Shown piece by piece: positions 11,273-31,620 of a stretch of 32,704 nucleotides of DNA (position 1 is the stretch's first letter; each line of letters begins with the position of its first letter). The position numbers were made by a program, and so were the translations under genes. Location of the stretch: assembly GCA_024709165.1 (NCBI GenBank), contig JANJXF010000096.1, forward strand, positions 1 to 32,704. The letters run 5' to 3'. Origin of the DNA: Thiobacillus sp. GTDB lineage: Bacteria > Pseudomonadota > Gammaproteobacteria > Burkholderiales > Thiobacillaceae. Below the pieces are notes generated by a model, which was given only the letters and a program-made list of their open reading frames with translations, made no database searches and was not told the origin of the DNA.

Positions 11273-11291
11273 GCGGACGCAACGGTCAGTT

Positions 11292-13169: not shown

Positions 13170-15009
13170 GGAGCAGGGGTCTGAGCAGAACGTCGGAGAC
13201 AGGAGGCTGGGGCGCGGCGGCGCCCTGGCATTCGCGGAAGATGCGCGCCTGACAGGTGCGGCAGACGGCCGGGTCGAGCCGCTTGTGAATCGCGGCAATC
13301 GCCTCGGTCTTGGAATCGAAAACGCTGCCGTCGCCGATGTGTTTCAGCGCGCCGCTTTCTGCAAGCTGTTCCTGCACCGCGTCCTTCATCCGGATGAAAT
13401 ACAGGCCGCCGCCCTCGCTGCGCCGCCGGTCGGCCTCCTCGGCAAGGTAGTGGGCACCGGCGAGATCGACGAAATTGATGGCGTGCGCGACCACGGCGAC
13501 GTGTTTCTGGCCGGGCGCAGTCCGGTCCTGCTGCGCGAGTGTTTCACGGATGTGCGAGGTGGCGCCGAAGAACAGCGAGCCGTCGATGCGCACGAAGCGC
13601 AGCTGCGGGCACTGGGGCACGTTCTGCGCATCGGTGAAATGACGCTTGATGTGGTGCGGGTCGGGCGCACGCACCCGCACCTGTGGTTTGGACGTGCGCG
13701 ACAGGTAGATCGCCAGCGAGGCCAGCACGCCGATGATGATGGCTTCCTCCAGGGTGAGGAAGAGCGTCGCCGCGAACGTGGCGGCCATGATCGCGGTTTC
13801 CTGGCGGCTGCTCCGGATGGTGTGGGCGATCTCGTCGAAGTCGATCAGCCCCCACGCCACCAGAAACAGAATACCCGCCATCGCGGCGTTGGGCAGGTAC
13901 TGCGCCCAAGGGGCGACGAACAGTACCAGCACCAGCAGAAACACCCCGGCCAGCATGGCCGCCATCGGCGTCTTTGCGCCAGCGGCATAGTTGACGCCGC
14001 TGCGATTGAACGAGCCGGTGGCGACGTAACCGGAGAAGAACGCGCCGGCGAGATTGGACAGACCCTGGCCGACGAATTCCTGGTTACCGTCGACGTGCTG
14101 CCCCGAGCGCGCGGCAAGCGCCCGCGCGATGGAAACCGCCTCGGTCAGCGCCAGCAGGGTGACGGCAATCACGCCGGACGCCACCGCACGTATGCTTTGC
14201 GCGTCGAGTGCCGGCATCGACAGCGGCGGCAGGCTCGCGGGCAATGCGCCGACGGTCGGCAGATCGGCACCCAGCCAGGCGGCGAGCACGGCGCCGCCGA
14301 TCGCGCCGCCGAGCATGGCGACGATCATGTAGGGCAGCTTCGGAAGCCAGCGCTTGACCGCGATGCCGAGCAGCAGCGTAAGGAGCCCGGTGGCGACGAT
14401 CGCGACATTGATTTCATCCATGCGCGTGAAAGCGTACGTCCAGGTGTCGGCAAACGAGGCGCCGCGCGGGATCGTCTGGCCAGTGAAATGCCTGACCTGG
14501 TTGGTGGCGATGAGGATGGCCGCACCCGCGGTGAAGCCCGTCACCACCGAATGCGAGATGAAATTCACCAGGGTGCCGAGCTTGGCGAGTCCCATGACGA
14601 TCTGAACCACGCCGACCAGGAAGGTCAGCGTCAGCGCGAGTCGCACGTACTCCACACTGCCCGGTTCGGCGTGCGGCGAGAGCACGGAAAACAGCACGAT
14701 CGACGCCGCAGTGGTCGGCCCGGACACGAGATGCCAGCTGGAACCGAACAACGCGGCAATGACCGCCGGGATCATGCCGGCGTAGAGCCCGTACTCGGCC
14801 GGCATGCCGGCGATGGTGGCAAACGCCACGCCCTGCGGCAGCGCGACCAGGGCACCGGTGAAGCCGGCCATGGCGTCGATGCGCAGGGTGTCGCGATTGA
14901 CCCGCGGCCACCACAGGAGAAAGGCGGTGAACGGTCTGAGCCAGGCAGGCAGGTGGGCGGAAGCGGGAAGCGACATCTGGGATCGGGCAGGTGCGAAAGA
15001 CTCTCGCAT
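13162..15009 (-). CDS. SulP-family anion transporter with STAS domain and Cys-rich tail (SulP-1)
   Basis: The 615-residue SLC26/SulP transporter has about 10-14 membrane segments (residues 40-440), the family motif NQEFVGQGLSNLAGAFF (309-325) and a cytoplasmic STAS domain (about 468-577). The tail carries C583, C586 and C594 in CRTCQARIFREC, a compact cysteine set. SulP proteins carry sulfate, bicarbonate or other anions; the substrate is not evident. ATG 15009 has a GGGAG site, while GTG 15045 and ATG 14976 are alternatives. If the promoter-like TATA region at 15009-15016 is used, 14976 would be the true start. It lies directly after the OmpR-type sensor kinase and is followed by Usp-1. Confidence 0.9.
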   Translation of the reverse strand: MRESFAPARSQMSLPASAHLPAWLRPFTAFLLWWPRVNRDTLRIDAMAGFTGALVALPQGVAFATIAGMPAEYGLYAGMIPAVIAALFGSSWHLVSGPTTAASIVLFSVLSPHAEPGSVEYVRLALTLTFLVGVVQIVMGLAKLGTLVNFISHSVVTGFTAGAAILIATNQVRHFTGQTIPRGASFADTWTYAFTRMDEINVAIVATGLLTLLLGIAVKRWLPKLPYMIVAMLGGAIGGAVLAAWLGADLPTVGALPASLPPLSMPALDAQSIRAVASGVIAVTLLALTEAVSIARALAARSGQHVDGNQEFVGQGLSNLAGAFFSGYVATGSFNRSGVNYAAGAKTPMAAMLAGVFLLVLVLFVAPWAQYLPNAAMAGILFLVAWGLIDFDEIAHTIRSSRQETAIMAATFAATLFLTLEEAIIIGVLASLAIYLSRTSKPQVRVRAPDPHHIKRHFTDAQNVPQCPQLRFVRIDGSLFFGATSHIRETLAQQDRTAPGQKHVAVVAHAINFVDLAGAHYLAEEADRRRSEGGGLYFIRMKDAVQEQLAESGALKHIGDGSVFDSKTEAIAAIHKRLDPAVCRTCQARIFRECQGAAAPQPPVSDVLLRPLLHA

Positions 15010-15035
15010 ATATATCCCGACTCCCGTGACCGGCA

Positions 15036-15072
15036 CGTCAGGCACACGTCATGAAAACGTCAAATGCCGTCA
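15036..15072 (-). promoter_or_regulatory. Four phased TGACG repeats upstream of SulP-1 (probable response-regulator sites)
   Basis: On the minus strand TGACG occurs at 15072-15068, 15062-15058, 15051-15047 and 15040-15036, with spacings of 10, 11 and 11 bases, i.e. one DNA turn. The inner pair reads TTGACGTTTTCATGACG, which matches a site upstream of the OmpR-type regulator gene in 16 of 17 bases. Tandem repeats with this pitch are the usual target of OmpR/PhoB-family regulators. The array overlaps the last codons of the kinase gene and ends 27 bases before the SulP-1 ATG. Confidence 0.68.
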
Positions 15073-16325
15073 AATTTCAGTACCGCGCGCGTGCCCTGCC
15101 CCTCCGTGCTGTCGAGCGTGACCGACCAGCCGTAACGGTCGCAGATCTTGCGCACCAGCGACAGTCCGATTCCCGCACCCTCGCTGTGCGCGCCCTTGTA
15201 AAGACGCTGAAACACCTTGCCAAGCGCCTCGCGCGGGATGCCGAGACCGGTGTCCTCGATGACAAGGGTGCCGGCGGCAAGGCGGATCTTCACGCTGCCG
15301 TGCTCGGTATAGGTGAAGCTGTTGCGCAGCAGGTTGGCGACGACGATGGCGAGCAGGTTCGCGTCGGCGGCAACGCGCGGCTGCGCGTCGAATTCCAGGA
15401 TCACTTCCACCGGCCGTGCGCCCAGCAGATGCCGGTGCTTGTCGACCGATTGCTCGACGAGAGTGGCCAGATCGACCGGTTCGCGCCGTTCGTCGTCGCG
15501 CTCGCGCGCCATCGCCAGCAGCGCGGTCGACAGGTCGGCCATGTCGGCCGCGCCGCGCTCGATGCGTTCGATGCGCTGGCGGTCCTTCTGCGGGCGCGTC
15601 GCGTCGGCGAGCAGCACCTCCGCAGCACCGCGAATCACCGCGATCGGTGTGCGCAGCTCATGCGAAACGTCGGCGGTGAAGGCACGCTCGCGGTCGATGA
15701 AGCTTGCCAGACGCTCGAAGGCCTGTTCGAAGGCATGCGCCAGTTCACCCACTTCGTCATGGGGAAAATCCTCGGTGAGCGGCTCGGGATGTGCGTCTGG
15801 CCGTACATTACGCACTCGCCGCGCCAGCTCCTTCACCGGCTCGATCACGCGCTCGGCAAGCCACAGTGCCAACGCCCCCGAAAGCAGCGCCATCAGCGTG
15901 ACGAAGACGGCGAGATAGAGGATGAGACCGGCCTGTTTCTTGCGAAAATAAGTTTCGTTGTAGAGCAGGAAATAGCGGCTGCCGTCGCGTTCGGCAATGG
16001 CGACACGGTAAAACACGTCGTCGAGACGGATCTCGTGCATTCCGGACGATAGCCGGGCGATGGCGTCCGGAGGCGGCGCTTCGCCCGTTCGCCCCGGTAG
16101 CGCATAGCCGAGCAGCGTGGCGGTCGACGGTGGGTGCGAATCCGGGTTGCGGCTGCGCCGCGCGAGATAATCCTGGATTTCCGCTTTCAGCGTTTCGTCG
16201 ATCAGGCGTTCGCCCGCGTCGCGCACGCCGAGATAGAGGCCGAAAGCCGCAACCAGACTGATGATGCCGCCGGTGACGGCAAACGCGGTGGCGACGCGAA
16301 AACGCAGGCTGCGGCTAAAGCGCAT
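15060..16325 (-). CDS. Sensor histidine kinase of an OmpR-type two-component system
   Basis: The 421-residue kinase has membrane helices at about 11-33 and 132-157 flanking a periplasmic region of about 95 residues. These are followed by a HAMP linker, the phospho-acceptor motif ADVSHELRTP (H222), N box VVANLLRNSFTYT, and G boxes DTGLGIP and GAGIGLSLV. It would sense a periplasmic or membrane signal and phosphorylate the partner regulator encoded just upstream; the two genes overlap by 11 bases. The small periplasmic domain is not a family I can name. The SulP-1 gene follows about 50 bases downstream in the same direction, which points to a transport-linked signal. Confidence 0.93.
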   Translation of the reverse strand: MRFSRSLRFRVATAFAVTGGIISLVAAFGLYLGVRDAGERLIDETLKAEIQDYLARRSRNPDSHPPSTATLLGYALPGRTGEAPPPDAIARLSSGMHEIRLDDVFYRVAIAERDGSRYFLLYNETYFRKKQAGLILYLAVFVTLMALLSGALALWLAERVIEPVKELARRVRNVRPDAHPEPLTEDFPHDEVGELAHAFEQAFERLASFIDRERAFTADVSHELRTPIAVIRGAAEVLLADATRPQKDRQRIERIERGAADMADLSTALLAMARERDDERREPVDLATLVEQSVDKHRHLLGARPVEVILEFDAQPRVAADANLLAIVVANLLRNSFTYTEHGSVKIRLAAGTLVIEDTGLGIPREALGKVFQRLYKGAHSEGAGIGLSLVRKICDRYGWSVTLDSTEGQGTRAVLKFDGI

Positions 16326-17016
16326 CGGGTGCAGCGATGCGGTAACCGATGCCGCGGACGGTGTGGATCAGGGGCACCTCATCCGCGCCGTCGACCGCCG
16401 CACGCAGTGTGTGCATGTGCGAGCGCAGCGCGTCGGAATCGGGCGGCGTCTCACCCCATACGGCGCGTTCCAGTTCCTCGCGCCGGACCACGCGTGGCGA
16501 CGCGCGCATCAGGGTTTCCAGCAGCCTGAGCGGCGTGGGCGACAGCGCGATGACGCGCGCGCCGCGGCGCGCGCGCACCAGCGCAGGATCGAATTCCAGG
16601 TCGCCCACCCGCAGCACGGACGGCGTCACCGCACTTTTCGCGCGGCGCACCAGCGCCAGCAGGCGCGCTTCCAGTTCGCGCAACGCAAAGGGCTTCAACA
16701 CATAATCGTCGGCCCCGCATTCGAGACCGGCCACGCGGTCGTCGAGCGCATCGCGGGCGGTGAGCATGAGCACCGGCGTGCTGCGTCGCGCCTCCTCCCG
16801 ATACTTGCGGCACAGCGTGAAGCCATCCATGCCCGGCAGCACGATGTCGAGCACGATGGCGTCGTAGTCTTGGGTCACCGCGAGGTGGAGGCCCGTGACG
16901 CCGTCGCCCGCGACATCGGCGATATGCCCCTTGGCCTCGAGAAAGTCGCAGACGTTGGCGGCGAGGTCGGGATTGTCCTCGATGACCAGAATGTGCAGAG
17001 GGCCTTGCGAGGTCAT
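16315..17016 (-). CDS. OmpR/PhoB-family response regulator
   Basis: The 233-residue regulator has a receiver domain (residues 7-120; phospho-acceptor D57 in IVLDIVLPGMDG, conserved K108 in VLKPF) and a C-terminal winged-helix DNA-binding domain ending in HTVRGIGYRI. It pairs with the kinase that overlaps its 3' end. Tandem TGACG repeats in its own upstream region and before SulP-1 suggest that it controls both (inference). The gene lies 88 bases downstream of Usp-2 on the same strand, leaving room for its own promoter. Confidence 0.94.
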   Translation of the reverse strand: MTSQGPLHILVIEDNPDLAANVCDFLEAKGHIADVAGDGVTGLHLAVTQDYDAIVLDIVLPGMDGFTLCRKYREEARRSTPVLMLTARDALDDRVAGLECGADDYVLKPFALRELEARLLALVRRAKSAVTPSVLRVGDLEFDPALVRARRGARVIALSPTPLRLLETLMRASPRVVRREELERAVWGETPPDSDALRSHMHTLRAAVDGADEVPLIHTVRGIGYRIAAPDAL

Positions 17017-17687: not shown

Positions 17688-19856
17688 CTACGCCTTGACC
17701 GCCAGCGCCGGCTCGCCCGAGCCGCCGGCCGCCGTGCGGTCTGCCGGCTTCACCGGGCAGAATAGGTCGCCCTTGCCGGCATCGCCCAGCCACTCGTAGA
17801 TCGCGGCCAGCGCGAAATCTTCGTTCGGGAAGACGTGCTTCTCGCCTATCTCAGTGAGCAGGCCGGTATTGCGCATCACGTCGAGCACCTGACGTTTGAG
17901 GCCGGAGAACACCAGGGTCACGCCATTTTCGTGGAGGCGCTCGTAGATCTGCCGCAGCGCTTCCTCACCGGTGGCATCGAGCTGGTTGATGCCGTCGGCG
18001 ACCACCAGGAGATACTTCGCCTTTGGATGGGCGGCCATGGTCTCCAGCACCGTCTCCTCGAAGTAGGCGACGTTGGCGAAATAAAGCTGACCGTCGAAGC
18101 GCATCGCAACGACGTGTTCGCTGGTCGGCAGGTCGGGGTTGACCTTGACGTCGCGCAGGGTGCCGTCGGCATAGCGGCCAAGCTGGGCGACTCGGGGCTT
18201 CATCGTGCGGTACAGATAGAGCGCGAGCGCCAGCGCGGCGCCGATGAGGATGCCCTTGTCGAGGTGCGGGGCGGCCAGCAGCGTGACAGCGAAGGTCACA
18301 CCCGCCACCACGCCGTCGGCCTTGTTCGCCTTCCAGGTGTGCTTCAGCGCCGCCGGGGTGACCAGGCTGGCGACCGCGAGCAGGATGATGACCCCCAGGG
18401 TGGCCTTGGGCAGGTGATAAAGGTAAGGAGTGAGGAACAGTAGCGTCAAACCGACGAACAGGCCGTTGAACACCATGGCGAAACCGGTTTGCGCACCGGC
18501 CTGCAGGTTGATCGCCGACCCTGTGAAGGAGCCGGTCGCCGGGTAGGACTGGAAGAATGCGCCGCCCATGTTGGCGATGCCCTGGCCGATCAGTTCCTGG
18601 TTGGGATCAAGGCGCTGCTTGGTTCGCGCGGCGAGTGCCTTGGCCATGGAAATGCACTCCATGAACGCCACCAGCGCGATGATGAACGCCGCCGACAGCA
18701 GCTGCAGCACGGCGTCGAACGACAGCGTCGGTAGACGGAAGGACGGCAGGCCAGCCGGGATGTTGCCGACGACGTCGCCGCCGCCGGTGAGGTTCATCTT
18801 GCCGTCCTCGATCTTTTTGATGTGCCACTGGTTGCCGTCGGTCGCCACCCCCGCCGGCACCTGGCCGTCCAGATAGAGCATCGCGCTCTGCGTTTCGGGA
18901 GCGTCCACGCGCACGAAATTGAGCTTGCGCAGGTGGGCGAGACTCTGCTTGTTCTGTGCTTCGAGCTTGCCGGCTTCGAGCTTCATCATGTCGATGCGGT
19001 AGCGCAGTTCGGTGGCCGCGAACGCATCGCCCGTCTTCTCGATCTGGCGCAGCTGCGCGCCCTTTTCCGTGATGTCGGTCTGCAGGGCCGCGGCCCGCTC
19101 CTGTGCCACGACGTAGTCGGCCACCAGCGCGCGCGTCGCGGCGTCGGCGATGTGCGCATCGGTGCCCGAGGTCTTGTGGGCGAAACCGATCGCGTAGCTG
19201 ACCAGGGTGGTGATCACCACCGCGATCAGCACGGAAGGCTTGGACAACAGCTTGACCTTCTTCAACACCAGCATCAGCACCAGCGCGAACACCGACATGG
19301 CCAGCGTCGGCAGGTGGGTCTGCGAAACGTTGCCGAACATCTCCCAGATGTCGACCAGGAAGGAGTCGCTGCGGCCCTTGGTGATGCCGAGCAGGAGGTC
19401 GAGTTGCGACAGGGCGATGATGATTGCCGCCGCGTTCATGAAGCCGAGGATCACCGGGTGCGAGACGAAGTTGACGATGGCGCCAAGCTTGAACGCACCG
19501 AGGCTGAACTGGATGACCCCGACCATCAGCGTCAGCAGCAGGGCGAGCCCGATGTATTCCTCGCTGAACGGCATGGCAAGGGGCGTGAGCGCCGCGGCGG
19601 TCATCAGCGAGATGATCGCCACCGGGCCCGTCGCGAGCTGGCGCGACGACCCCCACAGGGCGCCGAGAATGGCGGGAACCAGCGCAGTGTACAAGCCGAA
19701 ATACACCGGCAGGCCGGACAGCTGCGCGTACGCCATCGCCTTGGGCACCAGCACCAGCGCCCCGGTGATCCCGGCAATCAGATCCCCGCGCAGCACGATG
19801 CTGTTGAGTGGGAACCAGTGGAGGAACGGGAACAGGCGGTAAAGCAGCGGGTTCAT
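17688..19856 (-). CDS. SulP-family anion transporter with a large inserted coiled-coil region (SulP-2)
   Basis: The 722-residue SLC26/SulP transporter is well above the usual 500-620. Membrane helices occupy about residues 20-225 and 380-550. The motif NQELIGQGIANMGGAFF is at about 419-435, and a STAS domain at about 583-690. Between a helix ending near 227 and the conserved loop GNIPAGLP (364-371) lies an extra hydrophilic stretch of about 135 residues. It is rich in Glu, Gln, Ala and Lys with a heptad-like pattern (AQERAAALQTDITEK, MMKLEAGKLEAQNKQ). The ATG at 19856 is preferred to a GTG at 19868. A sigma-54-type promoter precedes it, and the NtrC-type system lies directly upstream. Substrate unknown. 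Confidence 0.9.
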   Translation of the reverse strand: MNPLLYRLFPFLHWFPLNSIVLRGDLIAGITGALVLVPKAMAYAQLSGLPVYFGLYTALVPAILGALWGSSRQLATGPVAIISLMTAAALTPLAMPFSEEYIGLALLLTLMVGVIQFSLGAFKLGAIVNFVSHPVILGFMNAAAIIIALSQLDLLLGITKGRSDSFLVDIWEMFGNVSQTHLPTLAMSVFALVLMLVLKKVKLLSKPSVLIAVVITTLVSYAIGFAHKTSGTDAHIADAATRALVADYVVAQERAAALQTDITEKGAQLRQIEKTGDAFAATELRYRIDMMKLEAGKLEAQNKQSLAHLRKLNFVRVDAPETQSAMLYLDGQVPAGVATDGNQWHIKKIEDGKMNLTGGGDVVGNIPAGLPSFRLPTLSFDAVLQLLSAAFIIALVAFMECISMAKALAARTKQRLDPNQELIGQGIANMGGAFFQSYPATGSFTGSAINLQAGAQTGFAMVFNGLFVGLTLLFLTPYLYHLPKATLGVIILLAVASLVTPAALKHTWKANKADGVVAGVTFAVTLLAAPHLDKGILIGAALALALYLYRTMKPRVAQLGRYADGTLRDVKVNPDLPTSEHVVAMRFDGQLYFANVAYFEETVLETMAAHPKAKYLLVVADGINQLDATGEEALRQIYERLHENGVTLVFSGLKRQVLDVMRNTGLLTEIGEKHVFPNEDFALAAIYEWLGDAGKGDLFCPVKPADRTAAGGSGEPALAVKA

Positions 19857-19906
19857 GGCAGCGGGCACGGGCTAACGTTGAGAAAGGAAACGGGCGTGTT
19901 TCATTA

Positions 19907-19923
19907 TGCAACAGTTTATCCAA
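19907..19923 (-). promoter_or_regulatory. Sigma-54 (-24/-12) promoter candidate for SulP-2
   Basis: The minus strand reads TTGGATAAACTGTTGCA, with the invariant GG at 19921-19920 and GC at 19909-19908 exactly 10 bases apart. It keeps YTGG and TTGCA of the consensus but not the CACG part. The predicted start of transcription is near 19896, 40 bases before the SulP-2 ATG. The gene directly upstream encodes a sigma-54 activator. Confidence 0.65.
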
Positions 19924-19935
19924 AAACCCAGGGAT

Positions 19936-19951
19936 TGCAAAAGGCTTTTGC
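19936..19951. promoter_or_regulatory. Palindrome upstream of the SulP-2 promoter, possible activator site
   Basis: GCAAAAG-G-CTTTTGC (19937-19951) is a perfect 7-bp dyad with one central base, touching the stop codon of the NtrC-type regulator and lying 13 bases upstream of the -24 element. Its left half TTGCAAAA recurs in the dyad at 22768-22782 on the other side of the regulator genes. The loop is too short and no T-run follows, so it is not a terminator. Confidence 0.5.
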
Positions 19952-21303
19952 TATGAGCCCTCCCCACCATAGCGTTTGAGTTTGCGCCACAGCGATACCC
20001 GGTCGATACCGAGCATCTGCGCCGCGAGCGTCTGGTTGCCGTGGGTTTCTTCCAGAACCCACTGAATGTATTCGCGTTCCTGCTCCTCCAGGGAGGCGAC
20101 GCGCCCCTCGCGGCGGCGGAAGGCGCGGATACCGAGATCGCGCAGGTCGTCGGGCAGGTGGGCGGGTTCGAGCGTCTCGCCCTGGCACAGGGCGACACCG
20201 CGCTCGATGATATTCTCCAGTTCGCGCACATTCCCAGGAAAATCATAGTTTTTAAGGAGAGTGAGCGCTTCCTCCGAGAGGGTTTGCACGGGCCGCCCCA
20301 TCACCGCGGCGGCGCGATCGAGAAAATACTGCGCCAGAAGCGGGATGTCGTCACGCCGTTCGGACAGTGGCGGGATGTGCAGGTTGACGACGTTGAGGCG
20401 GAAGTAGAGATCCTGGCGGAAGCGGCCATCGGCCACCCAGTCCTTCATGTTGCGGTTGCTGGCGGCAATGAAACGCACGTCGACCTTGACCGGACGGGTG
20501 CCACCGACCGGCAGTACCTCGCGCTCCTGGATCACGCGCAACAGTTTGACCTGCATGGCCGGCGACATCTCGGTGACCTCGTCGAGAAAGAGCGTGCCGC
20601 CGCTGGCCGCCAGCAGAAGACCACCCTTCCCCACCGCGCCGGTAAACGCCCCCTTTTCATGGCCGAACAGTTCGTTCGCCAGCAGTTCCTCGTTGAAGGC
20701 ACCGCAGTTCACCGCAACGAAGGGCCCGTCCGGGCGCCCGCTGTGTTCATGGAGATGGCGCGCGAAAAGCTCCTTGCCGGTGCCCGACTCCCCGGTGATC
20801 AGCACGTTAGCGCCGGTGCCGGCGACCTGACGCGCCATGTCCATGAGTTTCTGCATGCCGCCGTCGCAGGTGACGATGCGGGTGCGCCCATGCACCGCAT
20901 CGAGCTGCTCGCGCAGCGCCTGGTTCTCGCGCTTCAGTCGCACTTTTTCGAGTGCCTCGGCCACGGTCTGCCTCACCTCGTCGAGACGGAACGGCTTGGC
21001 GATGTAATGGAAGGCGCCGACCTTCATCGCCTCGACCGCCGACTCCAGCGTGGCATAGCCGGTGATCATGATGACTTCGACATGAGGATGGCGCGCCTTG
21101 GTGTGCTGCAGGAGCTGCATGCCGTCGACCTTGTCCATCTTGAGATCGGTGAGCACGAGATCAAACGGGCGCGAATCGATGAGGTCGAGCGCATGGCGGC
21201 CGCTCTGCGTGGCGACGATGTCGTAGCCTTCCTTGGCGAGCACGTGTTCGAGGTTGCGAAGAGCGATGCGTTCGTCGTCGACGATCAGGAGGCGGGCTGT
21301 CAT
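19951..21303 (-). CDS. NtrC-family sigma-54-dependent response regulator
   Basis: The 450-residue regulator has three domains. The receiver (1-120) has phospho-acceptor D53 in LTDLKM and the conserved Lys in IAKPF. The AAA+ domain has Walker A GESGTGKE at 171-178, the sigma-54 contact loop GAFTGA at 218-223, and Walker B GGTLFLDEV at 235-243. The C-terminal Fis-type helix-turn-helix reads NQTLAAQMLGIDRVSLWRKL. An intact GAFTGA loop means it should activate sigma-54 promoters. It overlaps its kinase by 4 bases. The two outward sigma-54-like promoters on either side of the pair are its likely targets. Confidence 0.96.
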   Translation of the reverse strand: MTARLLIVDDERIALRNLEHVLAKEGYDIVATQSGRHALDLIDSRPFDLVLTDLKMDKVDGMQLLQHTKARHPHVEVIMITGYATLESAVEAMKVGAFHYIAKPFRLDEVRQTVAEALEKVRLKRENQALREQLDAVHGRTRIVTCDGGMQKLMDMARQVAGTGANVLITGESGTGKELFARHLHEHSGRPDGPFVAVNCGAFNEELLANELFGHEKGAFTGAVGKGGLLLAASGGTLFLDEVTEMSPAMQVKLLRVIQEREVLPVGGTRPVKVDVRFIAASNRNMKDWVADGRFRQDLYFRLNVVNLHIPPLSERRDDIPLLAQYFLDRAAAVMGRPVQTLSEEALTLLKNYDFPGNVRELENIIERGVALCQGETLEPAHLPDDLRDLGIRAFRRREGRVASLEEQEREYIQWVLEETHGNQTLAAQMLGIDRVSLWRKLKRYGGEGS

Positions 21304-22748
21304 GGTGCGTCTTTCTGGTCGATCGGCAGGCGGATGCGGAAGCGCGCCCCGCCGCCGGGCCGGTTGTCGGCAGCCATGCAGCCGCCGTGTTTCTCGATGA
21401 TTTCATAGGCGACGAAGAGTCCAAGCCCGCTGCCGTGGCCTACTGCCTTGGTCGTGACAAAGGGGTCGAACACCCGGTCCAGAAGTTCCGGCGGGATGCC
21501 GGGGCCATCGTCGGCGATCTCGATTTCGACGACCGGCGCGCCCGTGTGACAGCCGTCGAGCGCAGCGGGGAAGCTGTCGTCACGCGCATCCGTGTCGAGG
21601 CGATGCGCCGAGATTTCAAGCACGCCAGCGCTGCCCATCGCATCATATGCATTGAGGATCAGGTTCAGGAATACCTGCTGCAGGCGCGGCCGATCGGCGA
21701 CGATGGCAAGGCTCGGCGCAACGTCGAGGCGCACGTCGACGCCCGTCGGCCGCTTGTTCTTGAGGAAACGCAGCGTCTCTTCCACCAGTTCGGCGAGCCC
21801 AAGCGGCGTCGGCCGGAATTCGCGGTCGCCCGAATAGTCGAGCAGCGCACGCACGATGCGGCGAGCCCGCAGCGTCTCGCTGTCGATGTCCTCGATCAGC
21901 TCGCTCCGCAAGGCGGGGGCCACGTCCGGATCCTCGCGCAGGATTTGCGCCGAAGAGGAAATGTTGGATAGCGGGTTGTTCAACTCATGGGCGACACCCG
22001 AAAGCAGCGTGCCCAGCGAGGCGAGCTTCTCCGACCGGACGAGCGTGTGCTGGCGTCGCTCCAGCTCTTCGAGTACGTGGTTGAATGCCCCGGTCAGGGA
22101 GACGAACTCACGGTCGCTGCTGTCCGGCTCCAGCCGCTTCAGCTGTCCGCTGGCGACCGCTTCCATGTGTACCTCCATGGCCTTCAACGGACGCGTCACG
22201 AGACGCGCGAGAAAAAATCCGGTCATCACCAGGATCGTCGCCACCGCCGCCAGAAAATACTGGAAATTCTGGCGATGCCTGCGGATCGCAAGGTCGACCG
22301 AGCGGCGCTCGCGCTGGGCGAGATTTTCGCCCAGCGTGACGATGCGGTAACCGTAAGCGCGCACTGCAGCCGCCAGCGCGTCGTCGAGCGGCGCATCCAC
22401 ATGCCGGCTCATCGCAGCCGCGTAGTCGGACAGCACAGCCGTGAGCAGCGCCGCCGTGCCGGTTCCGGCCAGGGTATCGATCACCGCCACATCCCGCGCG
22501 GCCAGTTCACGGATGCGCGCGACAAAACGGCCGTGCTCGTCGAGATCGGATGGCTGTGCATAAAGCAAGTGATTCTTCTCGAAACGTCGCATCTCCAGCG
22601 TCGCATCGAAGAGTTCGGTCACCTTGCCGCCCTCGCGCACCTTCTCCTCGATACGCGCAAGCTCGAACAGCGCCACGGCCGACAGGCCGACGACGAGCGC
22701 CGCGAGCGAGAGATAGGCAAGAGCAATCTTGGCCTGGAGCGAATGCAT
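21300..22748 (-). CDS. Sensor histidine kinase of the NtrC-type two-component system
   Basis: The 482-residue kinase has membrane helices at about 8-30 and 165-183 and a periplasmic helical domain of about 130 residues. The stretch FEKNHLLYAQPSDLDEHGRF resembles four-helix-bundle sensor domains. HAMP and a short coiled coil follow, then the H box SGVAHELNNPLSNI (H254), N box LNLILNAYDAM, and G boxes DDGPGIP and GSGLGLFVAYEI. The HELNNPL type is typical of partners of NtrC-family regulators. The ligand is unknown. It is divergent from the 22902 gene cluster. Confidence 0.94.
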   Translation of the reverse strand: MHSLQAKIALAYLSLAALVVGLSAVALFELARIEEKVREGGKVTELFDATLEMRRFEKNHLLYAQPSDLDEHGRFVARIRELAARDVAVIDTLAGTGTAALLTAVLSDYAAAMSRHVDAPLDDALAAAVRAYGYRIVTLGENLAQRERRSVDLAIRRHRQNFQYFLAAVATILVMTGFFLARLVTRPLKAMEVHMEAVASGQLKRLEPDSSDREFVSLTGAFNHVLEELERRQHTLVRSEKLASLGTLLSGVAHELNNPLSNISSSAQILREDPDVAPALRSELIEDIDSETLRARRIVRALLDYSGDREFRPTPLGLAELVEETLRFLKNKRPTGVDVRLDVAPSLAIVADRPRLQQVFLNLILNAYDAMGSAGVLEISAHRLDTDARDDSFPAALDGCHTGAPVVEIEIADDGPGIPPELLDRVFDPFVTTKAVGHGSGLGLFVAYEIIEKHGGCMAADNRPGGGARFRIRLPIDQKDAP

Positions 22749-22767
22749 CGCGGCAGTCTAACCTACC

Positions 22768-22782
22768 GTTGCAAAATGTAAC
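22768..22782. promoter_or_regulatory. Candidate upstream activator site in the 22749-22901 divergent region
   Basis: GTTGCA-AAA-TGTAAC is an imperfect dyad (5 of 6 positions) with a 3-base spacer. Its centre lies about 98 bases upstream of the predicted sigma-54 start at about 22873, the usual distance for an NtrC-family binding site. It shares TTGCAAAA with the palindrome near SulP-2. It also lies 20 bases before the kinase start, so it could mediate autoregulation. Confidence 0.5.
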
Positions 22783-22845
22783 AACCACTCGCCGGACAAT
22801 TCTGATAACGCTGATTATGTAATTGTTTTTATGGATGTTTTTTGG

Positions 22846-22862
22846 CTGGCACGCAACATGCT
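22846..22862 (+). promoter_or_regulatory. Sigma-54 (-24/-12) promoter candidate for the 22902-24939 cluster
   Basis: The plus strand reads CTGGCACGCAACATGCT. All eight bases of YTGGCACG match and TTGCW matches at four of five, with GG and GC exactly 10 bases apart, preceded by a T-rich stretch. Transcription would start near 22873, 29 bases before the first gene. This is the stronger of the two sigma-54 candidates. Confidence 0.82.
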
Positions 22863-22901
22863 TAAGACACGTCAACCCTTTGTGAAAAGTGAGTCAACGC
22901 C

Positions 22902-23096
22902 ATGTCAAAACTTGAGATCACCCACCTCACTCCGCGCACGCCTTACCAGACCTATCTGGAAGAGCGCCTGCAGTCCGCCGCCGGGCTGGGCTGGTCCATG
23001 CCCGCACGCGAGTCCCGCGCCGCCCCGTCACGGCAGCCCCGCCACGACCCGGTCAGCGAACTGGGCGCCGTGCCGCCGCTCGGCAAACCTGCCTGA
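22902..23096 (+). CDS. Small protein of unknown function, first gene of the sigma-54 cluster
   Basis: The 64-residue protein begins MSKLEITHLTPRTPYQTYLE; the second half is rich in Pro, Arg and Ser and appears disordered. No family is recognised, and there is no membrane helix and no Cys. It is supported by its place right behind the sigma-54-type promoter and by the TGATG overlap of its stop with the start of the next gene, which implies coupled translation. Its ribosome site is weak. Confidence 0.6.
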   Translation: MSKLEITHLTPRTPYQTYLEERLQSAAGLGWSMPARESRAAPSRQPRHDPVSELGAVPPLGKPA

Positions 23097-23470
23097 TGTC
23101 CCGCCGCGTGCTCCTCGCCCTGCGTCCGGTGTCCCCGGTCGAACGCCTGTTCGGCGCCGGTGCCGCGCTCGCTCGGCGCATGGACGCCGACCTCGAAGTG
23201 CTGGCCGATCCTGAACATCCGCGCTGGGTCGACATCGTCACCCGGCTCACCGAACTTTCGCGCGGCGGTCTCGGCTGCCGCCTCACGCCGATGCCGGGCA
23301 TAGAGATCCGCCGTGTCGTCGATTACGCACGCGGCCACGAGGGCATCGTCTCCGTCGTCGTCGGCCGCCCCGGCGCCTGGTCAGGCGACAACGCAATCGA
23401 CCATTGGGCGCGGCTCGAATGCCCGCTGGTCGCCGCCTCAGATTCGCCCGGCCAGCCTCACGAACCCTGA
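23096..23470 (+). CDS. Short universal-stress-like protein (Usp-3)
   Basis: The 124-residue protein has the opening strand and helix of a Usp fold (RRVLLALRPVSPVERLFGAGA, then MDADLEVL), a middle region ending in VSVVVGRPG, and a final strand ECPLVAA. It is shorter than the usual 140-160 and not a close copy of Usp-1 or Usp-2. The start codon overlaps the preceding stop (TGATG). It lies between the 64-residue protein and the small membrane protein. Like the other two Usp-like genes here it accompanies an anion transporter, in this case TauE/SafE. Confidence 0.65.
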   Translation: MSRRVLLALRPVSPVERLFGAGAALARRMDADLEVLADPEHPRWVDIVTRLTELSRGGLGCRLTPMPGIEIRRVVDYARGHEGIVSVVVGRPGAWSGDNAIDHWARLECPLVAASDSPGQPHEP

Positions 23471-23502
23471 TTTTTCTTCCACATTTCCCAAGGAGTACAT
23501 CC

Positions 23503-23817
23503 ATGATCCAGGACAAATCCAAACTCGGCCCCGCCGTGCTGTGGGGCGCGGCCACTGCAGCGCTCTACTGGCTGCTGTTCCAGTATTCCGGCAGCTTCGA
23601 ACTGCTGGCCCACACCACGCTGGACGTCTGCGTCGCAGGTGACGACTACTACAGCCAAGCCACGGCCGAAGCGTGCACCGCGAAAGGTGGCAATTTCATC
23701 GATGGTGTGTGGTGGTATGTGTTCGCCCCCATCGCCATGGCCTTCGCGCTGTCCTATACCCACGGCAATTTCACCGGCCTGTTCTGGGACGTCGTCGGTC
23801 TCAAAGCAAAAAAATAA
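23503..23817 (+). CDS. Small two-helix membrane protein encoded before the TauE/SafE gene
   Basis: The 104-residue protein is not a family I can name. It has hydrophobic helices at about 8-27 and 69-85. The loop between them carries two Cys (C43 and C58) in DVCVAGDDYY and AEACTAKGG, probably periplasmic and possibly disulfide-bonded. The C-terminus is basic (GLKAKK). The start is clear: AAGGAG lies seven bases before the ATG. It follows Usp-3 by 32 bases and precedes the exporter by 30, suggesting an accessory subunit. Confidence 0.75.
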   Translation: MIQDKSKLGPAVLWGAATAALYWLLFQYSGSFELLAHTTLDVCVAGDDYYSQATAEACTAKGGNFIDGVWWYVFAPIAMAFALSYTHGNFTGLFWDVVGLKAKK

Positions 23818-23847
23818 GACGCCCCTCCCACCCGAGAACAAATCACC

Positions 23848-24939
23848 ATGGAACTCATCAACTTCATCGAAATCACCCCTCTCACCGCGATCCTCCTGAT
23901 CCTGGTCGGCTTCGTCGGCGGCATGGTGTCCGGCTTCATCGGCTCCGGCGGCGCCTTCGTGCTGACCCCGGCGATGATGACGCTGGGCGCACCCGGCATC
24001 GTCGCGGTGGCCTCCAACATCTGCCACAAATTTCCCAAGGCGCTGGTCGGCGCGGTCAAACGCAACAAGTACGGCCAGGTCGACGTCAAGCTGGGCCTGA
24101 TCCTCGGCCTGTTCGCCGAGGCCGGTGTGTTGTTCGGCAAGCACGTGATGACCGACATCAAGAACGCCTTCGGCGCGGTCGGCACTGACCTCTATGTGTC
24201 CGGCATGTTCGTCGTCACGCTGGCGATCGTCGGCGGTTTCGTGCTGAAGGACTACAAGAAGCTAAAGGCGCTGGACGACGCCGGCGACGGCAGCGAGCAG
24301 GCCGCGCCGATCACCCGGCTTGCGCGCTGGGTGCAGTCGGTGAACATCCCGGGCACCATGATCTATTCGAAAGCCGCACAGGCCCGTGTCTCGATCCTGT
24401 TCCTGGTGCCGATCGGCTTCGCCACCGGCTTCCTCGCCTCGGCGATCGCGGTGGGCGGCTTCATCGGCGTGCCGGCGATGATCTACATCCTCGGCGTGCC
24501 GGCGATCATGGCCTCCGCCACCGAGCTGGTCATCGCCTTCATCATGGGCCTGGGCGGCACGATCTTCTATGGTCTTGAAGGCGTGGTCGACATCCGTCTG
24601 GCGATGCTGATCCTGCTCGGCTCCCTGTTCGGCATCCAGGTCGGCGCCATCGGCACAACGTATGTGAAGGACTACCAGGTCAAGTTCACTATGGCGGTGA
24701 TCATGCTGACCGTGCTGTTCTCGCGTTTCTTCTACATCCCCGGCTATCTCTCGCAGCTCGGCATGATCGAGCCGTTGAATGCGTCCACCATGCAGGTCCT
24801 CAAATGGGTCGGCGACGGCGTACTGGCGCTGGCGCTGATCGTCGGCGCGTGGACCGTGCTGGCAGCACTGTTCAAGGGCATCCACGAGCACCGCAGACAG
24901 CATGCGGTGCACACCGACCAGATCGGCGTCGCCGAGTGA
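23848..24939 (+). CDS. TauE/SafE-family anion exporter
   Basis: The 363-residue membrane protein has about eight to nine helices and the repeated TauE/SafE motif: GFVGGMVSGFIGSGGAFVLTP in the first half, then ILFLVPIGFATGFLASAIAVGG in the second. The family exports sulfite, sulfoacetate and similar organo-sulfur anions, or takes up related compounds. This protein is about 100 residues longer than typical members, with an extended central loop (about 130-185) and a His/Gln-rich C-terminus (HEHRRQHAVH). It is the last gene of the sigma-54 cluster and is followed by a strong terminator. In a sulfur oxidiser, sulfite or sulfate disposal is a reasonable guess. Confidence 0.88.
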   Translation: MELINFIEITPLTAILLILVGFVGGMVSGFIGSGGAFVLTPAMMTLGAPGIVAVASNICHKFPKALVGAVKRNKYGQVDVKLGLILGLFAEAGVLFGKHVMTDIKNAFGAVGTDLYVSGMFVVTLAIVGGFVLKDYKKLKALDDAGDGSEQAAPITRLARWVQSVNIPGTMIYSKAAQARVSILFLVPIGFATGFLASAIAVGGFIGVPAMIYILGVPAIMASATELVIAFIMGLGGTIFYGLEGVVDIRLAMLILLGSLFGIQVGAIGTTYVKDYQVKFTMAVIMLTVLFSRFFYIPGYLSQLGMIEPLNASTMQVLKWVGDGVLALALIVGAWTVLAALFKGIHEHRRQHAVHTDQIGVAE

Positions 24940-25029: not shown

Positions 25030-25590
25030 ATGATACGCAGAAACCCCACCGGACATCTGCCCGTTGTCCATGACACCGCCTTCGTCGATCCCACCGCCAT
25101 CCTGTGTGGCAAGGTCATCGTCGAGGAGAACGTCTTCATCGGGCCCTACGCCGTGATCCGTGCCGACGAAGTGGACGAGCAAGGCGACATGGAGCCGATC
25201 ATCATCGGCGCAAACTCGAACATCCAGGATGGTGTCGTCATCCACTGCAAGGCGGGAGGCGGCGTCACCATCGGCCGCGGCACCTCGATCGCACACCGTT
25301 CCATCGTGCACGGACCGTGCATCGTCGGCGACGACGTCTTCGTCGGCTTCAACTCGGTGCTGTTCAACTGCATGGTGGGTAGCCATTCCGTGATCCGCCA
25401 CAACTCGGTGGTCGAAGGCTGCGAGGTGCCACACAGTTTCTACGTCCCTTCGACGGCCAACATCAAGTCCAACCAGGATCTGGACACCATCGAGCGCGTC
25501 ACGCCCGACGTCGCCAGTTTCTCGGAAAGCGTGATCCAAGCGAACAAGGAACTGGTCAAGGGCTACAAGCGCATCCGCAACGAGTTCTGA
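25030..25590 (+). CDS. Gamma-class carbonic anhydrase-like protein (Cam/CamH type)
   Basis: The 186-residue left-handed beta-helix protein has hexapeptide repeats and the metal-site pattern of gamma-carbonic anhydrases: H72 in VVIHC, H89 in SIAHRS and H94 in IVHGP, followed by IVGDDVFVGFNS. These match His81, His117 and His122 of the Methanosarcina enzyme and the N-domain of CcmM. The reaction is CO2 hydration/bicarbonate dehydration. No RuBisCO small-subunit-like repeats follow, so it is not a full CcmM. Whether it is active needs assay, since many homologs are silent. Its stop is 8 bases before the SulP-3 start, so the two form one transcription unit. Confidence 0.85.
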   Translation: MIRRNPTGHLPVVHDTAFVDPTAILCGKVIVEENVFIGPYAVIRADEVDEQGDMEPIIIGANSNIQDGVVIHCKAGGGVTIGRGTSIAHRSIVHGPCIVGDDVFVGFNSVLFNCMVGSHSVIRHNSVVEGCEVPHSFYVPSTANIKSNQDLDTIERVTPDVASFSESVIQANKELVKGYKRIRNEF

Positions 25591-25598
25591 CGCGCCAC

Positions 25599-27236
25599 GT
25601 GATCGCAGCGCTGGAGTCCTGGAAAGCCGGGCTGTTCGGCCGGCATCACTTCATGCGCAACCTCGGTGCCGGCCTCGTCGTCGGCATGGTCGCCCTGCCG
25701 CTGGCGTTGGCTTTCGCCATCGCCAGCGGGGCGCGCCCCGAACAGGGCATCTATACCGGCATCGTCGCCGGCCTCTTGGCCTCGCTCTTCGGCAGTTCGC
25801 GCGTATCGATCAGCGGCCCCACCGGCGCCTTCATCGTGATCCTCGCCGGCATCACCGCCAAGCACGGCATCGCCGGCCTGCAGATCGCCAGCCTGATGGC
25901 CGGTCTCATCCTGCTGGCGATGGGCCTGATCCGGCTCGGCGGCATCATCCGTTTCATCCCCACGCCGGTCGTCACCGGCTTCACCAGCGGCATCGCGGTC
26001 ATCATCTTCGTCGGACAGTGGAAGGATTTCTTCGGCCTCACCCCTGCGGCGTCCGGCCAGCATTTCCACGAAAAGCTCATCGCGCTGGTCGACGCGATGC
26101 CCGACCTCAACCTGCCGACCACCCTGCTGGCGCTGGGTGCGCTCGCCATCGTCGTGCTGCTGCCGCGCGTGGTGCGGCGCATCCCCAGTCCGCTCGTCGC
26201 CATGCTCGCCGTCACGCTCGCCCAGGCCTGGTGGCAGTTCGACGATGTCGCCACCATCGGCAGCGCCTTCGGCGGCATTCCCGCAGGGCTGCCCGAGCCG
26301 CATCTCCCCACCGTCACGTTCGCGCGGATGCTGGAACTGATCGGCCCGGCCGTCACCATCGCCATGCTGGGCGCGATCGAATCGCTCTTGTGCGCGGTCG
26401 TCGCCGACGGCATGGCCGGCACCCGGCACGATCCGAATCAGGAACTGGTCGGCCAGGGCATCGCCAACCTCGCCGCGCCGGTCTTCGGCGGCTTCGCTGC
26501 CACCGGCGCGATCGCACGCACCGCCACCAGCATCCGCAACGGCGGCAACAGCCCGCTCGCCGGTGTGGTGCACGCGCTGCTTCTGCTGGCGGTGATCGTC
26601 GCGCTGGCGCCGCTGGCGGCACACGTCCCGCTCGCCGCGCTGGCTGCGATTCTGTTCGTGGTGGCGTGGAACATGAGCGAGGCGCGCCATTTCGTCGACC
26701 TCCTGCGCCACGCACCGATCAACGACCGCGCCCTGCTCCTCATCACCTTCCTGTTGACCGTGTTCGCGGATCTCGTGATCGCGGTCAACGTCGGCGTACT
26801 GCTCGCCGCGCTGCTGTTCATGAAGCGCATGAGCGAGACGGTGACGATCGAGGGCGAGACCGACACCAGCCTTGCCGGCGTATGCGCAGTCGGCGTACCC
26901 AGGGGTGTGCAGATCTATTCGATCGACGGGCCGTTGTTCTTCGGTGCCGCGGCGACGTTCGAACGCACGCTCGCCGGCCTGCACGACCAGACGCGGATAT
27001 TGATCCTGCGCCTCGGCGAAGTGCCGATCATCGACGCCACCGCGATGCAGGCGCTGTCGGACATGACACGTCGCTTCCAACAGCGCGGGGTCAAGGTCAT
27101 GCTGTGCGAAGCCAGCGAGCGCATCAACAACAAACTGGCAAATTTCGGATTGCTCACGCGCCTCGGTCAACGCGACGCGCGCGTGTCGCTGTCCGACGCC
27201 CTGGAACAGGCCGCGAAGGCACCGACGGACGCCTGA
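25599..27236 (+). CDS. SulP-family anion transporter coupled to carbonic anhydrase (SulP-3), candidate bicarbonate transporter
   Basis: The 545-residue SulP protein has about 10-14 helices (residues 20-410), the motif NQELVGQGIANLAAPVFGGF (280-299) and a short STAS domain (about 436-540, IYSIDGPLFFGAAATFERTL). The start is GTG 25599, 8 bases after the carbonic anhydrase stop. SulP proteins include the cyanobacterial bicarbonate carrier BicA, and fusions of SulP with carbonic anhydrase are known in other bacteria (for example mycobacterial Rv3273). The pairing here therefore suggests bicarbonate, but sulfate is not excluded. It is convergent with the last gene of the cbb operon with only 6 bases between stops and no terminator. 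Confidence 0.9.
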   Translation: MIAALESWKAGLFGRHHFMRNLGAGLVVGMVALPLALAFAIASGARPEQGIYTGIVAGLLASLFGSSRVSISGPTGAFIVILAGITAKHGIAGLQIASLMAGLILLAMGLIRLGGIIRFIPTPVVTGFTSGIAVIIFVGQWKDFFGLTPAASGQHFHEKLIALVDAMPDLNLPTTLLALGALAIVVLLPRVVRRIPSPLVAMLAVTLAQAWWQFDDVATIGSAFGGIPAGLPEPHLPTVTFARMLELIGPAVTIAMLGAIESLLCAVVADGMAGTRHDPNQELVGQGIANLAAPVFGGFAATGAIARTATSIRNGGNSPLAGVVHALLLLAVIVALAPLAAHVPLAALAAILFVVAWNMSEARHFVDLLRHAPINDRALLLITFLLTVFADLVIAVNVGVLLAALLFMKRMSETVTIEGETDTSLAGVCAVGVPRGVQIYSIDGPLFFGAAATFERTLAGLHDQTRILILRLGEVPIIDATAMQALSDMTRRFQQRGVKVMLCEASERINNKLANFGLLTRLGQRDARVSLSDALEQAAKAPTDA

Positions 27237-27242
27237 CGACGC

Positions 27243-27536
27243 TCAGTCGTCCTCGCCGAGCTCCGGGTTCCAGCCCTTGCGCTTGGCAAGCGCGAGCGCG
27301 CGCTCGTAGATCTGCGTGTGGCGCTCGCGCAGTTCCGGGGGTAGGCGGCTCGGCAGGTTGGCGTACTGATCCCACTCTTTCTCGATGCGGTCCATCAACG
27401 CCTGCATGCGGCCGAGATCCCATCCGGTACAGTCCTCGCTCTCGGGAATGAAACCGAACAGCCAGCCATCGAGCACCACCCTGCCGAGCTGGGTCATGCC
27501 GTGCTTGTCATTGTTGAAGCCGATGTATTTTTCCAT
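27243..27536 (-). CDS. Protein of unknown function at the end of the cbb operon
   Basis: The 97-residue soluble acidic protein begins MEKYIGFNNDKHGMTQLGRV and continues with aromatic and acidic residues (WDLGRMQALMDRIEKEWDQY) and a helical basic C-terminal third. It has one Cys. I do not recognise the family. It is the last gene in the cbbL-cbbS-cbbQ-cbbO direction, 169 bases after cbbO, behind an inverted-repeat element. The ATG at 27536 is preferred for its AAAAGG site. Position suggests a RuBisCO-related accessory role, but nothing in the sequence proves it. Confidence 0.75.
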   Translation of the reverse strand: MEKYIGFNNDKHGMTQLGRVVLDGWLFGFIPESEDCTGWDLGRMQALMDRIEKEWDQYANLPSRLPPELRERHTQIYERALALAKRKGWNPELGEDD

Positions 27537-27553
27537 GGTCAAAACCTTTTTTG

Positions 27554-27697
27554 TCCGCGAAGGACGCGAAGAAACGCGAAGGAAGCGCTGAACAGGTCGA
27601 TCATTGCTTTTCCGGCATTCATCGCGGTGACGCATTGTTCAGTACTTCCAGCAGTCTGAATCTGGGTTTCTTCGCGTTCCTTCGCGTCCTTCGCGGA
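27554..27697. repeat. Inverted-repeat element between cbbO and the 97-residue gene
   Basis: Arms of 31 bases (27554-27584 and 27667-27697) pair at 29 positions. They carry the core TCCGCGAAGGACGCGAA found again at 30967-31089. The inside is 82 bases with its own short dyad (CTGAACA / TGTTCAG). The second arm ends 8 bases before the cbbO stop. It has no coding capacity and resembles a short palindromic mobile repeat. Confidence 0.75.
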
Positions 27698-27705
27698 TAA
27701 GGAAG

Positions 27706-30063: not shown

Positions 30064-30070
30064 GGTGTGG

Positions 30071-30142
30071 TGAGTCGTGAGTGGTGAACGGTGAGTGGTG
30101 ATGGGGCGTTGTCCGCTTACCACTTACCACTTACTACTTACT
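30071..30142. repeat. Heptamer tandem repeats between cbbQ and cbbO
   Basis: Five 7-base units of the form TGAGTGG (30071-30105) and four of the form ACTTACC/T (30115-30142) stand as an imperfect inverted repeat around a 9-base centre. They fill almost all of the 78-base gap. One side overlaps the cbbQ stop codon, the other comes within 8 bases of the cbbO ATG. They resemble short tandem repeat families known from other bacterial intergenic DNA. Confidence 0.75.
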
Positions 30143-30945: not shown

Positions 30946-30966
30946 GTGAACTCCTCAAAATTTACT

Positions 30967-31089
30967 CATCCGCGAAGGACGCGAAAAAAGCCTTCAAGAC
31001 ACGTGCGCCGCCTGCAACCCCGGGCAAACACCAGGATCGTGTTCCACGACCTGGGGATCCTTCACGTTTCTTCGCGTCCTTCGCGGATG
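30967..31089. repeat. Inverted-repeat element between cbbS and cbbQ
   Basis: Perfect 19-bp inverted arms (30967-30985 and 31071-31089; core TCCGCGAAGGACGCGAA) enclose 85 bases. The inside contains a second dyad, CCAGG-x2-CGTG / CACG-x2-CTGG. The arms match those of the element at 27554-27697; the insides do not. It has no reading frame. Confidence 0.75.
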
Positions 31090-31101
31090 AACAAGACCAA
31101 C

Positions 31102-31135: not shown

Positions 31136-31156
31136 GGTACGGTCACCCGTCGCGAC

Positions 31157-31606: not shown

Positions 31607-31620
31607 CGCCCCTCGCGCCT

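Follow-up and report, generated by a model that had tools for sequence, protein, structure and literature searches.

Which transporters does a two-component system serve when it lies between two anion carriers of different families, and which anion do these carriers move? The question is raised by a stretch of 32,704 nucleotides (hereafter the window), which is one contig (JANJXF010000096.1) of a metagenome-assembled genome (MAG) of Thiobacillus sp. (GCA_024709165.1; 2.65 Mb, 219 contigs, 87% complete). Here the genes for a membrane sensor histidine kinase (HK) and an NtrC-type response regulator (REG) are flanked on one side by a SulP family gene, SulP-2, codirectional with REG, and on the other by a divergent operon encoding, in this order, a 64-residue protein (S64), a protein with a universal stress protein (Usp) fold, a small membrane protein (SMP) and a TauE/SafE (TSUP family) transporter. 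The original prediction for this DNA, made without database searches, had described two outward sigma-54 promoters, one facing the TauE operon (site 1) and one facing SulP-2 (site 2), and had interpreted the whole as a regulon for anion traffic in an autotroph. Our analysis bears out both the HK/REG pair and the sigma-54 promoter on the TauE side, and comparison with related loci strongly supports a local, dedicated control region made up of a single sigma-54 promoter and a candidate regulator-binding dyad upstream of it. The explanation that we favor, with rather more confidence than doubt, is that HK and REG form an NtrC-type switch dedicated to the anion transporters of this locus, whose substrate would be a sulfur oxyanion, and that they exert reciprocal control over SulP-2.

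The translation of REG contains an intact GAFTGA motif, as had been predicted, and its matches to the Pfam models Response_reg (PF00072), Sigma54_activat (PF00158) and HTH_8 (PF02954) identify it as an NtrC-type sigma-54 regulator. Its partner kinase adjoins it, and the genome also has, at another place, a gene for sigma-54 itself. REG scored under the cut-offs of the 25 NCBIfam models listed out of 123, including those for AtoC (434 bits, cut-off 714), ZraR (399 bits, cut-off 760) and NtrC (396 bits, cut-off 559). Orthologues with at least 57% identity were recovered from 30 of 60 genomes, the source genome included, at 31 places, the next among the matches listed having 47% identity or less; judged by REG, Thiobacillus sp. 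RS343 bin.5 and 65-29 are the nearest of the named relatives. The wider comparisons were made on 80 named loci (L numbers) that hold a REG relative at 50–93% identity, of which the 75 with at least 200 nt beyond the HK/REG start were counted, L071, L072, L121, L124 and L127 having been dropped beforehand for falling short of this length. Relatives of REG were also seen in two metagenome bins, L081 and L120, whose titles name Bordetella parapertussis and Dichelobacter nodosus, respectively, probably wrongly.

When the window was scanned with a sigma-54 matrix, which is an approximation built from a sigma-54 consensus, site 1 scored 17.4 bits and the runner-up on either strand reached 11.0, 6 bits less. 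In an alignment of the window with three relatives of the same gene order, TGGCACGC and a TGCTT stretch remain unchanged while their surroundings vary, and the GG-N10-GC arrangement with YTGGCACG is kept in relatives on the same strand. Across the 75 loci an outward-facing sigma-54 site of at least 12 bits was detected in 42, as against a single locus for the inward strand and 1.4 expected from shuffled sequences. The strong site of the original prediction, facing S64, the Usp-like gene, SMP and TauE in the order that it gave, is thus borne out by the matrix scan of the window and by conservation in relatives. In a separate Thiobacillus clade (L043–L053 except L047) we noted a second sigma-54-like site about 600 nt beyond the first in 7 of 10 loci.

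Upstream of site 1 lies the dyad GTTGCAAAATGTAAC, a candidate REG-binding site, which is kept throughout the same-gene-order alignment save for one change in one genome. The orthologous loci mostly possess a better palindrome of the form GTTGCA-N3-TGCAAC, often in two copies. With at most one mismatch in the 12 specified bases and at no more than 350 nt from the HK/REG start, this palindrome was found in 59 of the 75 loci (exactly in 9), where dinucleotide shuffles lead one to expect 0.2 loci and control windows gave 13 hits in 2361; the count is not wholly independent, because the sequences used to define the palindrome, those of the window and its relatives, overlap in part with the named loci. 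Its distance from the -24 element falls mainly at 76–79 and 87–95 nt. Where an HK gene adjoins, as it does at 62 loci, a copy with at most two mismatches starts 15–35 nt from the HK start in 51, which makes autoregulation likely, i.e. the HK/REG pair probably controls itself as well.

The palindrome is also rare in the genomes examined. In the source genome the looser form GTTNCANNNTGNAAC occurs three times with 0.85 expected by composition, and its reversed control pattern zero times; one copy stands on each side of the pair, and the third, on another contig (C78:215-229), was set aside as a chance occurrence given that expectation and its overlap with two receptor-like frames, at the end of one and the start of the other. 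The exact palindrome is present in 15 of 56 genomes of the genus, once apiece, where composition predicts about 5.5 in all and the reversed control was seen in 1 of 56, and in all eight genomes compared (G005, G013, G015, G016, G020, G024, G026 and G070) it lies at the REG locus. A composite of the palindrome and a strict promoter pattern, which we judged too strict, was recovered from 7 of the 56 genomes, in six of them at the REG locus, the remaining one (G061) not being placed. The original prediction had put a half-site within a dyad on each side of the pair: TTGCAAAA does have exactly two occurrences in the window, one per side, at 19935 and 22769, but only the copy at 22769 is part of a conserved dyad, and we rejected the dyad around 19935, which is degraded or gone in four aligned relatives; on the SulP side it is a different dyad, GTTTCATTATGCAAC at 19898-19912, that is conserved.

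The module governed from this region is a recurrent cassette, usually consisting of a small peptide, a Usp-fold protein and a transporter. The first carrier behind the divergent promoter is a SulP in 43 of the 75 loci, a TauE in 15 and another carrier or none in 17, the last class including short-flank loci as well as L105 and L106, where TauE is farther away than the distance tested. The SulP/TauE/DASS label changes at least five times on a quickly built tree of 70 REG proteins, which has long branches and leaves out rows containing stops or short matches. At L139–L141, which are among these 17, a carrier of the CitM/Na-sulfate-symporter type stands behind a protein in the Usp position, which aligns at 10–13% identity, the L139 copy lacking a Usp match of its own. 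A Pfam census covering 107 of 134 neighbouring open reading frames at 30 chosen loci likewise showed CitM/DASS, Usp and TauE to recur, and no sox or dsr family was among the 25 families listed of 93.

A Usp-like gene follows the promoter in 59 of the 75 loci. The window copy matches no Pfam family at 1e-3 or 0.1, PF00582 included, and relatives from L111 and L129 reached 15.2 and 20.5 bits, below the PF00582 cut-off of 24. Its structure model (mean pLDDT 90) has the Usp fold, the ten PDB matches with E-values of at most 0.001 all being Usp proteins or domains with TM-scores, by query length, of 0.50–0.67. The top match is TeaD of the TeaABC ectoine TRAP transporter of Halomonas elongata (3hgm, E-value 1.3e-4), which shares the fold and the link to a transporter; it differs in its low identity (21%; TM-score 0.63), in that the window copy lacks a Pfam Usp match, and in the family of the transporter concerned. 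By analogy with the gating role proposed for TeaD at TeaABC, the Usp-fold protein of the cassette probably gates its transporter. SMP was detected at 12 loci, every one of them with a TauE payload, and relatives of S64 were collected from 16 named loci with an iterated hidden Markov model (HMM). In other clades a FAEAGEF-like motif marks what takes the place of S64, either a separate peptide or one joined to the Usp-like protein: a tiny FAEAGEFxxAR-like peptide precedes the Usp-like genes at L105, L106, L108, L109, L102 and L098 and in one further cluster, and elsewhere such a stretch is fused to the Usp-like N-terminus. In the clade of L043–L053 (again except L047) the promoter drives genes for a short peptide and for a membrane protein some 246 residues long (six loci as clustered), the latter presumably resembling DUF599. 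At L037, L038, L042 and L153 the SulP gene behind the promoter is followed by one resembling a hydrogenase-4/NuoL-type membrane subunit gene, with no obvious hydrogenase, the Proton_antipo_M match having been tested in L153 only.

If the divergent operon has a sigma-54 promoter, does SulP-2 have one too, so that REG activates both carriers from two true outward promoters? The proposed element, site 2, indeed shows the GG-N10-GC spacing, and in the window, L062 and L063 this is combined with a good -12 element. As a promoter, however, it scores a chance-like 10.8 bits, being one of several 10–11-bit matches in the window, and the palindrome overlaps it instead of lying upstream. A SulP gene begins within 400 nt after REG at 18 loci, the window included, and 15 of these keep a composite element in which a TAAAAT/TAAACT-like box is followed directly by the G(T/C)TGC of the palindrome; this pattern, chosen in hindsight and with the near copies L064 and L065 counted twice, was seen in 0 of the 75 HK-side gaps. 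The -24 GG is present in only 6 of these 15 loci (among which the window is counted) and is absent from 9, L064, L065 and L066 lacking it despite the same gene order, whereas the -12 GC is kept because it forms part of the palindrome half-site. Loss of the GG or GC bases in relatives that keep the gene order was what the original prediction had named as grounds for abandoning a site, and this is what we observed at site 2, which we accordingly rejected as a sigma-54 promoter. Such a layout is possible in principle, since on the REG side of the Nitrospirota locus L122 a sigma-54 site scoring 14.9 bits stands about 79 nt beyond a palindrome, GTTGCAAACTGCAAC, and points towards the gene of a CitM-type carrier downstream of REG, but for the window we regard joint activation from two sigma-54 promoters as improbable. 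The conserved composite points instead to a sigma-70-like -10 box abutting the dyad. A sigma-70 scan with a 9-of-12 threshold did not report the pair TTGCAA-N16-TAAACT, so that the box rests on its conservation. Since the palindrome covers the start expected for such a promoter, the arrangement suggests that REG represses SulP-2, or that some other control acts there. It may also be asked whether the palindrome is bound by REG at all, or by another regulator, for instance a global redox or sulfur regulator, with REG acting through other sites. The absence of the palindrome from L134, L135 and L137, whose REG has diverged, would fit this, but the rarity of the palindrome in the genomes examined, its position at the REG locus wherever compared, its enhancer-like spacing to the sigma-54 promoter and its persistence over REG identities of 50–93% make it very improbable. 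As a separate observation, L078 and L079 have, just downstream of REG, sigma-54 sites of 16.8 and 18.8 bits that point away from it; no palindrome with at most one mismatch was among those listed for that side.

As to the anion, the regulator goes with dissimilatory sulfur metabolism no less closely than with RuBisCO. In 43 REG genomes, picked from among the 80 loci so as to sample the whole tree, dsrA over its curated cut-off was found in 42 (all but G097) and RuBisCO in 29 (with two weak matches, in G098 at a contig end and in G103); all 14 genomes without RuBisCO have dsrA. Among 300 genomes of the order, REG is present in 23, of which 20 have dsrA, as against 41 of the 277 without REG; for RuBisCO the corresponding figures are 22 of 23 and 88 of 277. 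When only RuBisCO-positive genomes are considered, dsrA occurs in 19 of 22 with REG and 36 of 88 without it (odds ratio 9, p 2e-4), while among dsrA-positive genomes RuBisCO occurs in 19 of 20 and 36 of 41 (p 0.65, not significant). Anion traffic in an autotroph, as originally proposed, is a reasonable description, but REG follows dsrA at least as well as RuBisCO. The SulP, TSUP and DASS families each include sulfate or sulfite carriers. For TSUP, such carriers are described in the available sections of PMC5840216. Taking these points together, a sulfur oxyanion (sulfate or sulfite) would be appreciably the more probable substrate when set beside bicarbonate. Under the latter alternative HK/REG would sense low CO2 or bicarbonate and switch SulP and TauE as bicarbonate carriers for RuBisCO and carbonic anhydrase. 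Because of the cbb and gamma-carbonic anhydrase (gamma-CA) neighbours, which together with SulP-1 all lie within 8 kb of TauE, and because of RuBisCO in nearly all REG-positive genomes of the order, bicarbonate has to be reckoned with; a gamma-CA homologue is also matched in 31 of the 80 named loci, and an LCIB-type CA domain and a CsoSCA-like domain were detected in L141 and L087, respectively. The REG genomes that have dsrA and lack RuBisCO argue against it, though some may fix CO2 otherwise, as do the scores of SulP-2 (124 bits) and SulP-1 (282 bits), which miss by far the cut-off of 880 bits of the BicA equivalog NF050096; the gamma-CA homologue of the window, at 122.9 bits, also misses the cut-off of its equivalog NF040597 (380 bits). 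We know of no TauE or DASS carrier established as a bicarbonate transporter. In Thiomicrospira pelophila the carboxysome-side SulP moves dissolved inorganic carbon, whereas the other SulP failed to rescue, as far as the available text of that study goes (PMC12628692). On balance we consider control by inorganic carbon unlikely, though clearly less so than the two alternatives concerning promoter and operator.

In the sulfur-oxyanion switch that we prefer, HK would sense an extracytoplasmic or membrane signal and, as its family suggests, phosphorylate REG. The regulator is envisaged to bind the palindrome some 76–95 nt upstream of the single sigma-54 promoter, the site, the spacing and the promoter being evident from conservation and the binding presumed; bound REG would then drive the operon of small peptide, Usp-fold protein and transporter, with SMP and TauE as the carrier in the window and a SulP or a DASS/CitM-type protein in relatives. 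From the HK-side palindrome it would probably control its own pair too, and at SulP-2, where the palindrome lies directly behind the sigma-70-like -10 box, it is more likely to repress than to activate via sigma-54, which would place the two transporters under reciprocal control. The substrate is most likely to be the sulfate or sulfite of the Dsr pathway. Several observations weigh against this explanation. An outward sigma-54 site of at least 12 bits is absent from 33 of the 75 loci, including many from Rhodocyclaceae and Nitrospirota; the palindrome has two mismatches at best in 9 of the 75, and L105, L106, L119, L120, L134, L135 and L137 show nothing under four mismatches in the tested gap, although L105 and L106 have a palindrome farther out. 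Repression of SulP-2 is argued from the position of the operator only, and the -35 element there is weakly conserved. The genomes and loci compared are related to each other, so that the p values and counts overstate the independent evidence. No dsrA was found at 1e-100 in the source genome, itself an 87% complete MAG, nor in G049 and G358, with the best five candidates per genome scored; and the window itself holds cbbLSQO, SulP-1 and the gamma-CA homologue beside the operon.

A broader interpretation, which we put forward tentatively, is that the pair and its palindrome act as a portable 'socket' for transporters in the dissimilatory sulfur cycle, into which SulP, TauE with SMP, or DASS carriers have been swapped in the course of evolution, mostly together with a small peptide and a gate of Usp fold. 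The copy in the window may work as a reciprocal switch, turning the sigma-54-dependent carrier on and the sigma-70-dependent SulP off, and in this way determine in which direction, or with what affinity, sulfate and sulfite are exchanged with the Dsr pathway. Its range would extend from Betaproteobacteria to Nitrospirota, with the addition of gammaproteobacterial symbionts with diverged regulators.

The original prediction had added that no described system has this make-up. This was overstated, since sigma-54-dependent two-component control of a TSUP carrier is a known kind of system: the available part of a study of the sulfate reducer Desulfovibrio vulgaris (Kazakov et al. 2015, PMC4641369) describes nine operons under sigma-54 that encode TSUP or PSE transporters, and two regulators that bind upstream of a TSUP operon, and states that substrate data for these permeases are lacking. 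The D. vulgaris regulators DVU0110 and DVUA0057, with DVU0132-DVU0133, resemble REG by their description as two-component regulators with GAFTGA on sigma-54 TSUP operons; in the same sections DVU0110/DVUA0057 are also listed with exopolysaccharide genes, and no Usp-like partner or interchange of SulP, TSUP and DASS carriers is reported there (PMC4641369). With the NtrC, AtoC and ZraR systems that have a divergent sigma-54 target, the locus shares the domain order, GAFTGA, the Fis-type helix-turn-helix (HTH) and a palindrome about 80–90 nt from the -24/-12 elements, whereas REG falls below their equivalog cut-offs and has a palindrome and payload of its own. Two-component control in a sulfur oxidiser is also exemplified by TspS-TspR (sox), called sigma-54 dependent, and RsrS-RsrR (tetH) of Acidithiobacillus caldus; unlike the present pair these sit with oxidation genes, and the RsrR site AACACCTGTTACACCTGTT is unrelated to the palindrome (PMC5093147, available sections). 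Among autotrophic Pseudomonadota there are SulP bicarbonate transporters near CO2-fixation genes (PMC12628692, PMC10880623), but the main texts, as far as available, mention NtrC in neither case and, in the former, no sigma or two-component regulator, and the BicA cut-off is missed here. A word search of the available text of two sigma-54 regulon surveys (PMC12316311, PMC3162934) gave no SulP or TauE entry. In the open-licence literature, judged from listings except for the papers cited, we found no description of the exact make-up and nothing else on this system, be it the palindrome, a partner of Usp fold, carriers of one family replacing those of another, or a link to dsrA.

Table 1. Features of the locus (positions in the window; an empty strand cell where none applies or is given)
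Feature	Position	Strand	Basis or remark
SulP-2, anion transporter with STAS domain	17688..19856	-	ATG 19856 taken as start; GTG 19868 possible
Second palindrome GTTTCATTATGCAAC, candidate REG operator beside SulP-2 start	19898..19912		conservation
Proposed second sigma-54 site (site 2) TTGGATAAACTGTTGCA	19907..19923	-	unsupported as promoter
Sigma-70-like -10 box TAAACT abutting the dyad	19913..19918	-	TTGCAA 16 nt upstream at 19935-19940
REG, NtrC-type response regulator (receiver, AAA+ with GAFTGA, Fis-type HTH)	19951..21303	-	domain matches and translation
HK, membrane sensor histidine kinase (HAMP, HisKA, HATPase_c)	21300..22748	-	overlaps REG start
Palindrome GTTGCAAAATGTAAC, candidate REG binding site (upstream activating sequence)	22768..22782		19 nt from HK start, 78 nt from -24
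Sigma-54 promoter (site 1) CTGGCACGCAACATGCT, facing TauE operon	22846..22862	+	matrix score and conservation
S64, small protein, conserved motif TYLxERLQSA.GLGW	22902..23096	+	iterated HMM relatives
Usp-like protein, universal-stress fold	23096..23470	+	structure match, best solved TeaD
SMP, small membrane protein	23503..23817	+	adjoins TauE in 12 named loci
TauE/SafE (TSUP family) transporter	23848..24939	+	PF01925, 3e-35
Gamma-carbonic anhydrase homologue	25030-25590		hexapeptide repeats

Both carriers next to the control region belong to their families by sequence: SulP-2 has the Sulfate_transp and STAS domains and scores 402.8 bits against TIGR00815 (cut-off 380.45), and TauE scores 122.5 bits against PF01925 (gathering score 32.6), its transport activity being predicted. 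Past TauE follow the gamma-CA homologue, SulP-1, a VWA gene (named cbbO from its position), cbbQ, cbbS and cbbL, the last cut by the window end; this carbon island, with the VWA and cbbL/cbbS/cbbQ genes on the minus strand, occupies 25030-32703. On the other side, past SulP-2, there are an OmpR-type regulator with a histidine kinase and SulP-3 (13162-17016), so that about 15 kb holds three SulP genes and two two-component systems. Farther out, at 10361-11735, an NhaR-like LysR regulator (over its NCBIfam cut-off) adjoins a PIN-domain gene.

Membrane traffic of sulfate and sulfite, and the choice of carrier for it, are poorly known in sulfur oxidisers and sulfur reducers. A regulator that follows dsrA and marks transporter operons would provide a list of candidate carriers, a palindrome that can be tested and a prediction of reciprocal control, and the gamma-CA and RuBisCO neighbourhood makes the bicarbonate alternative testable in the same assay.

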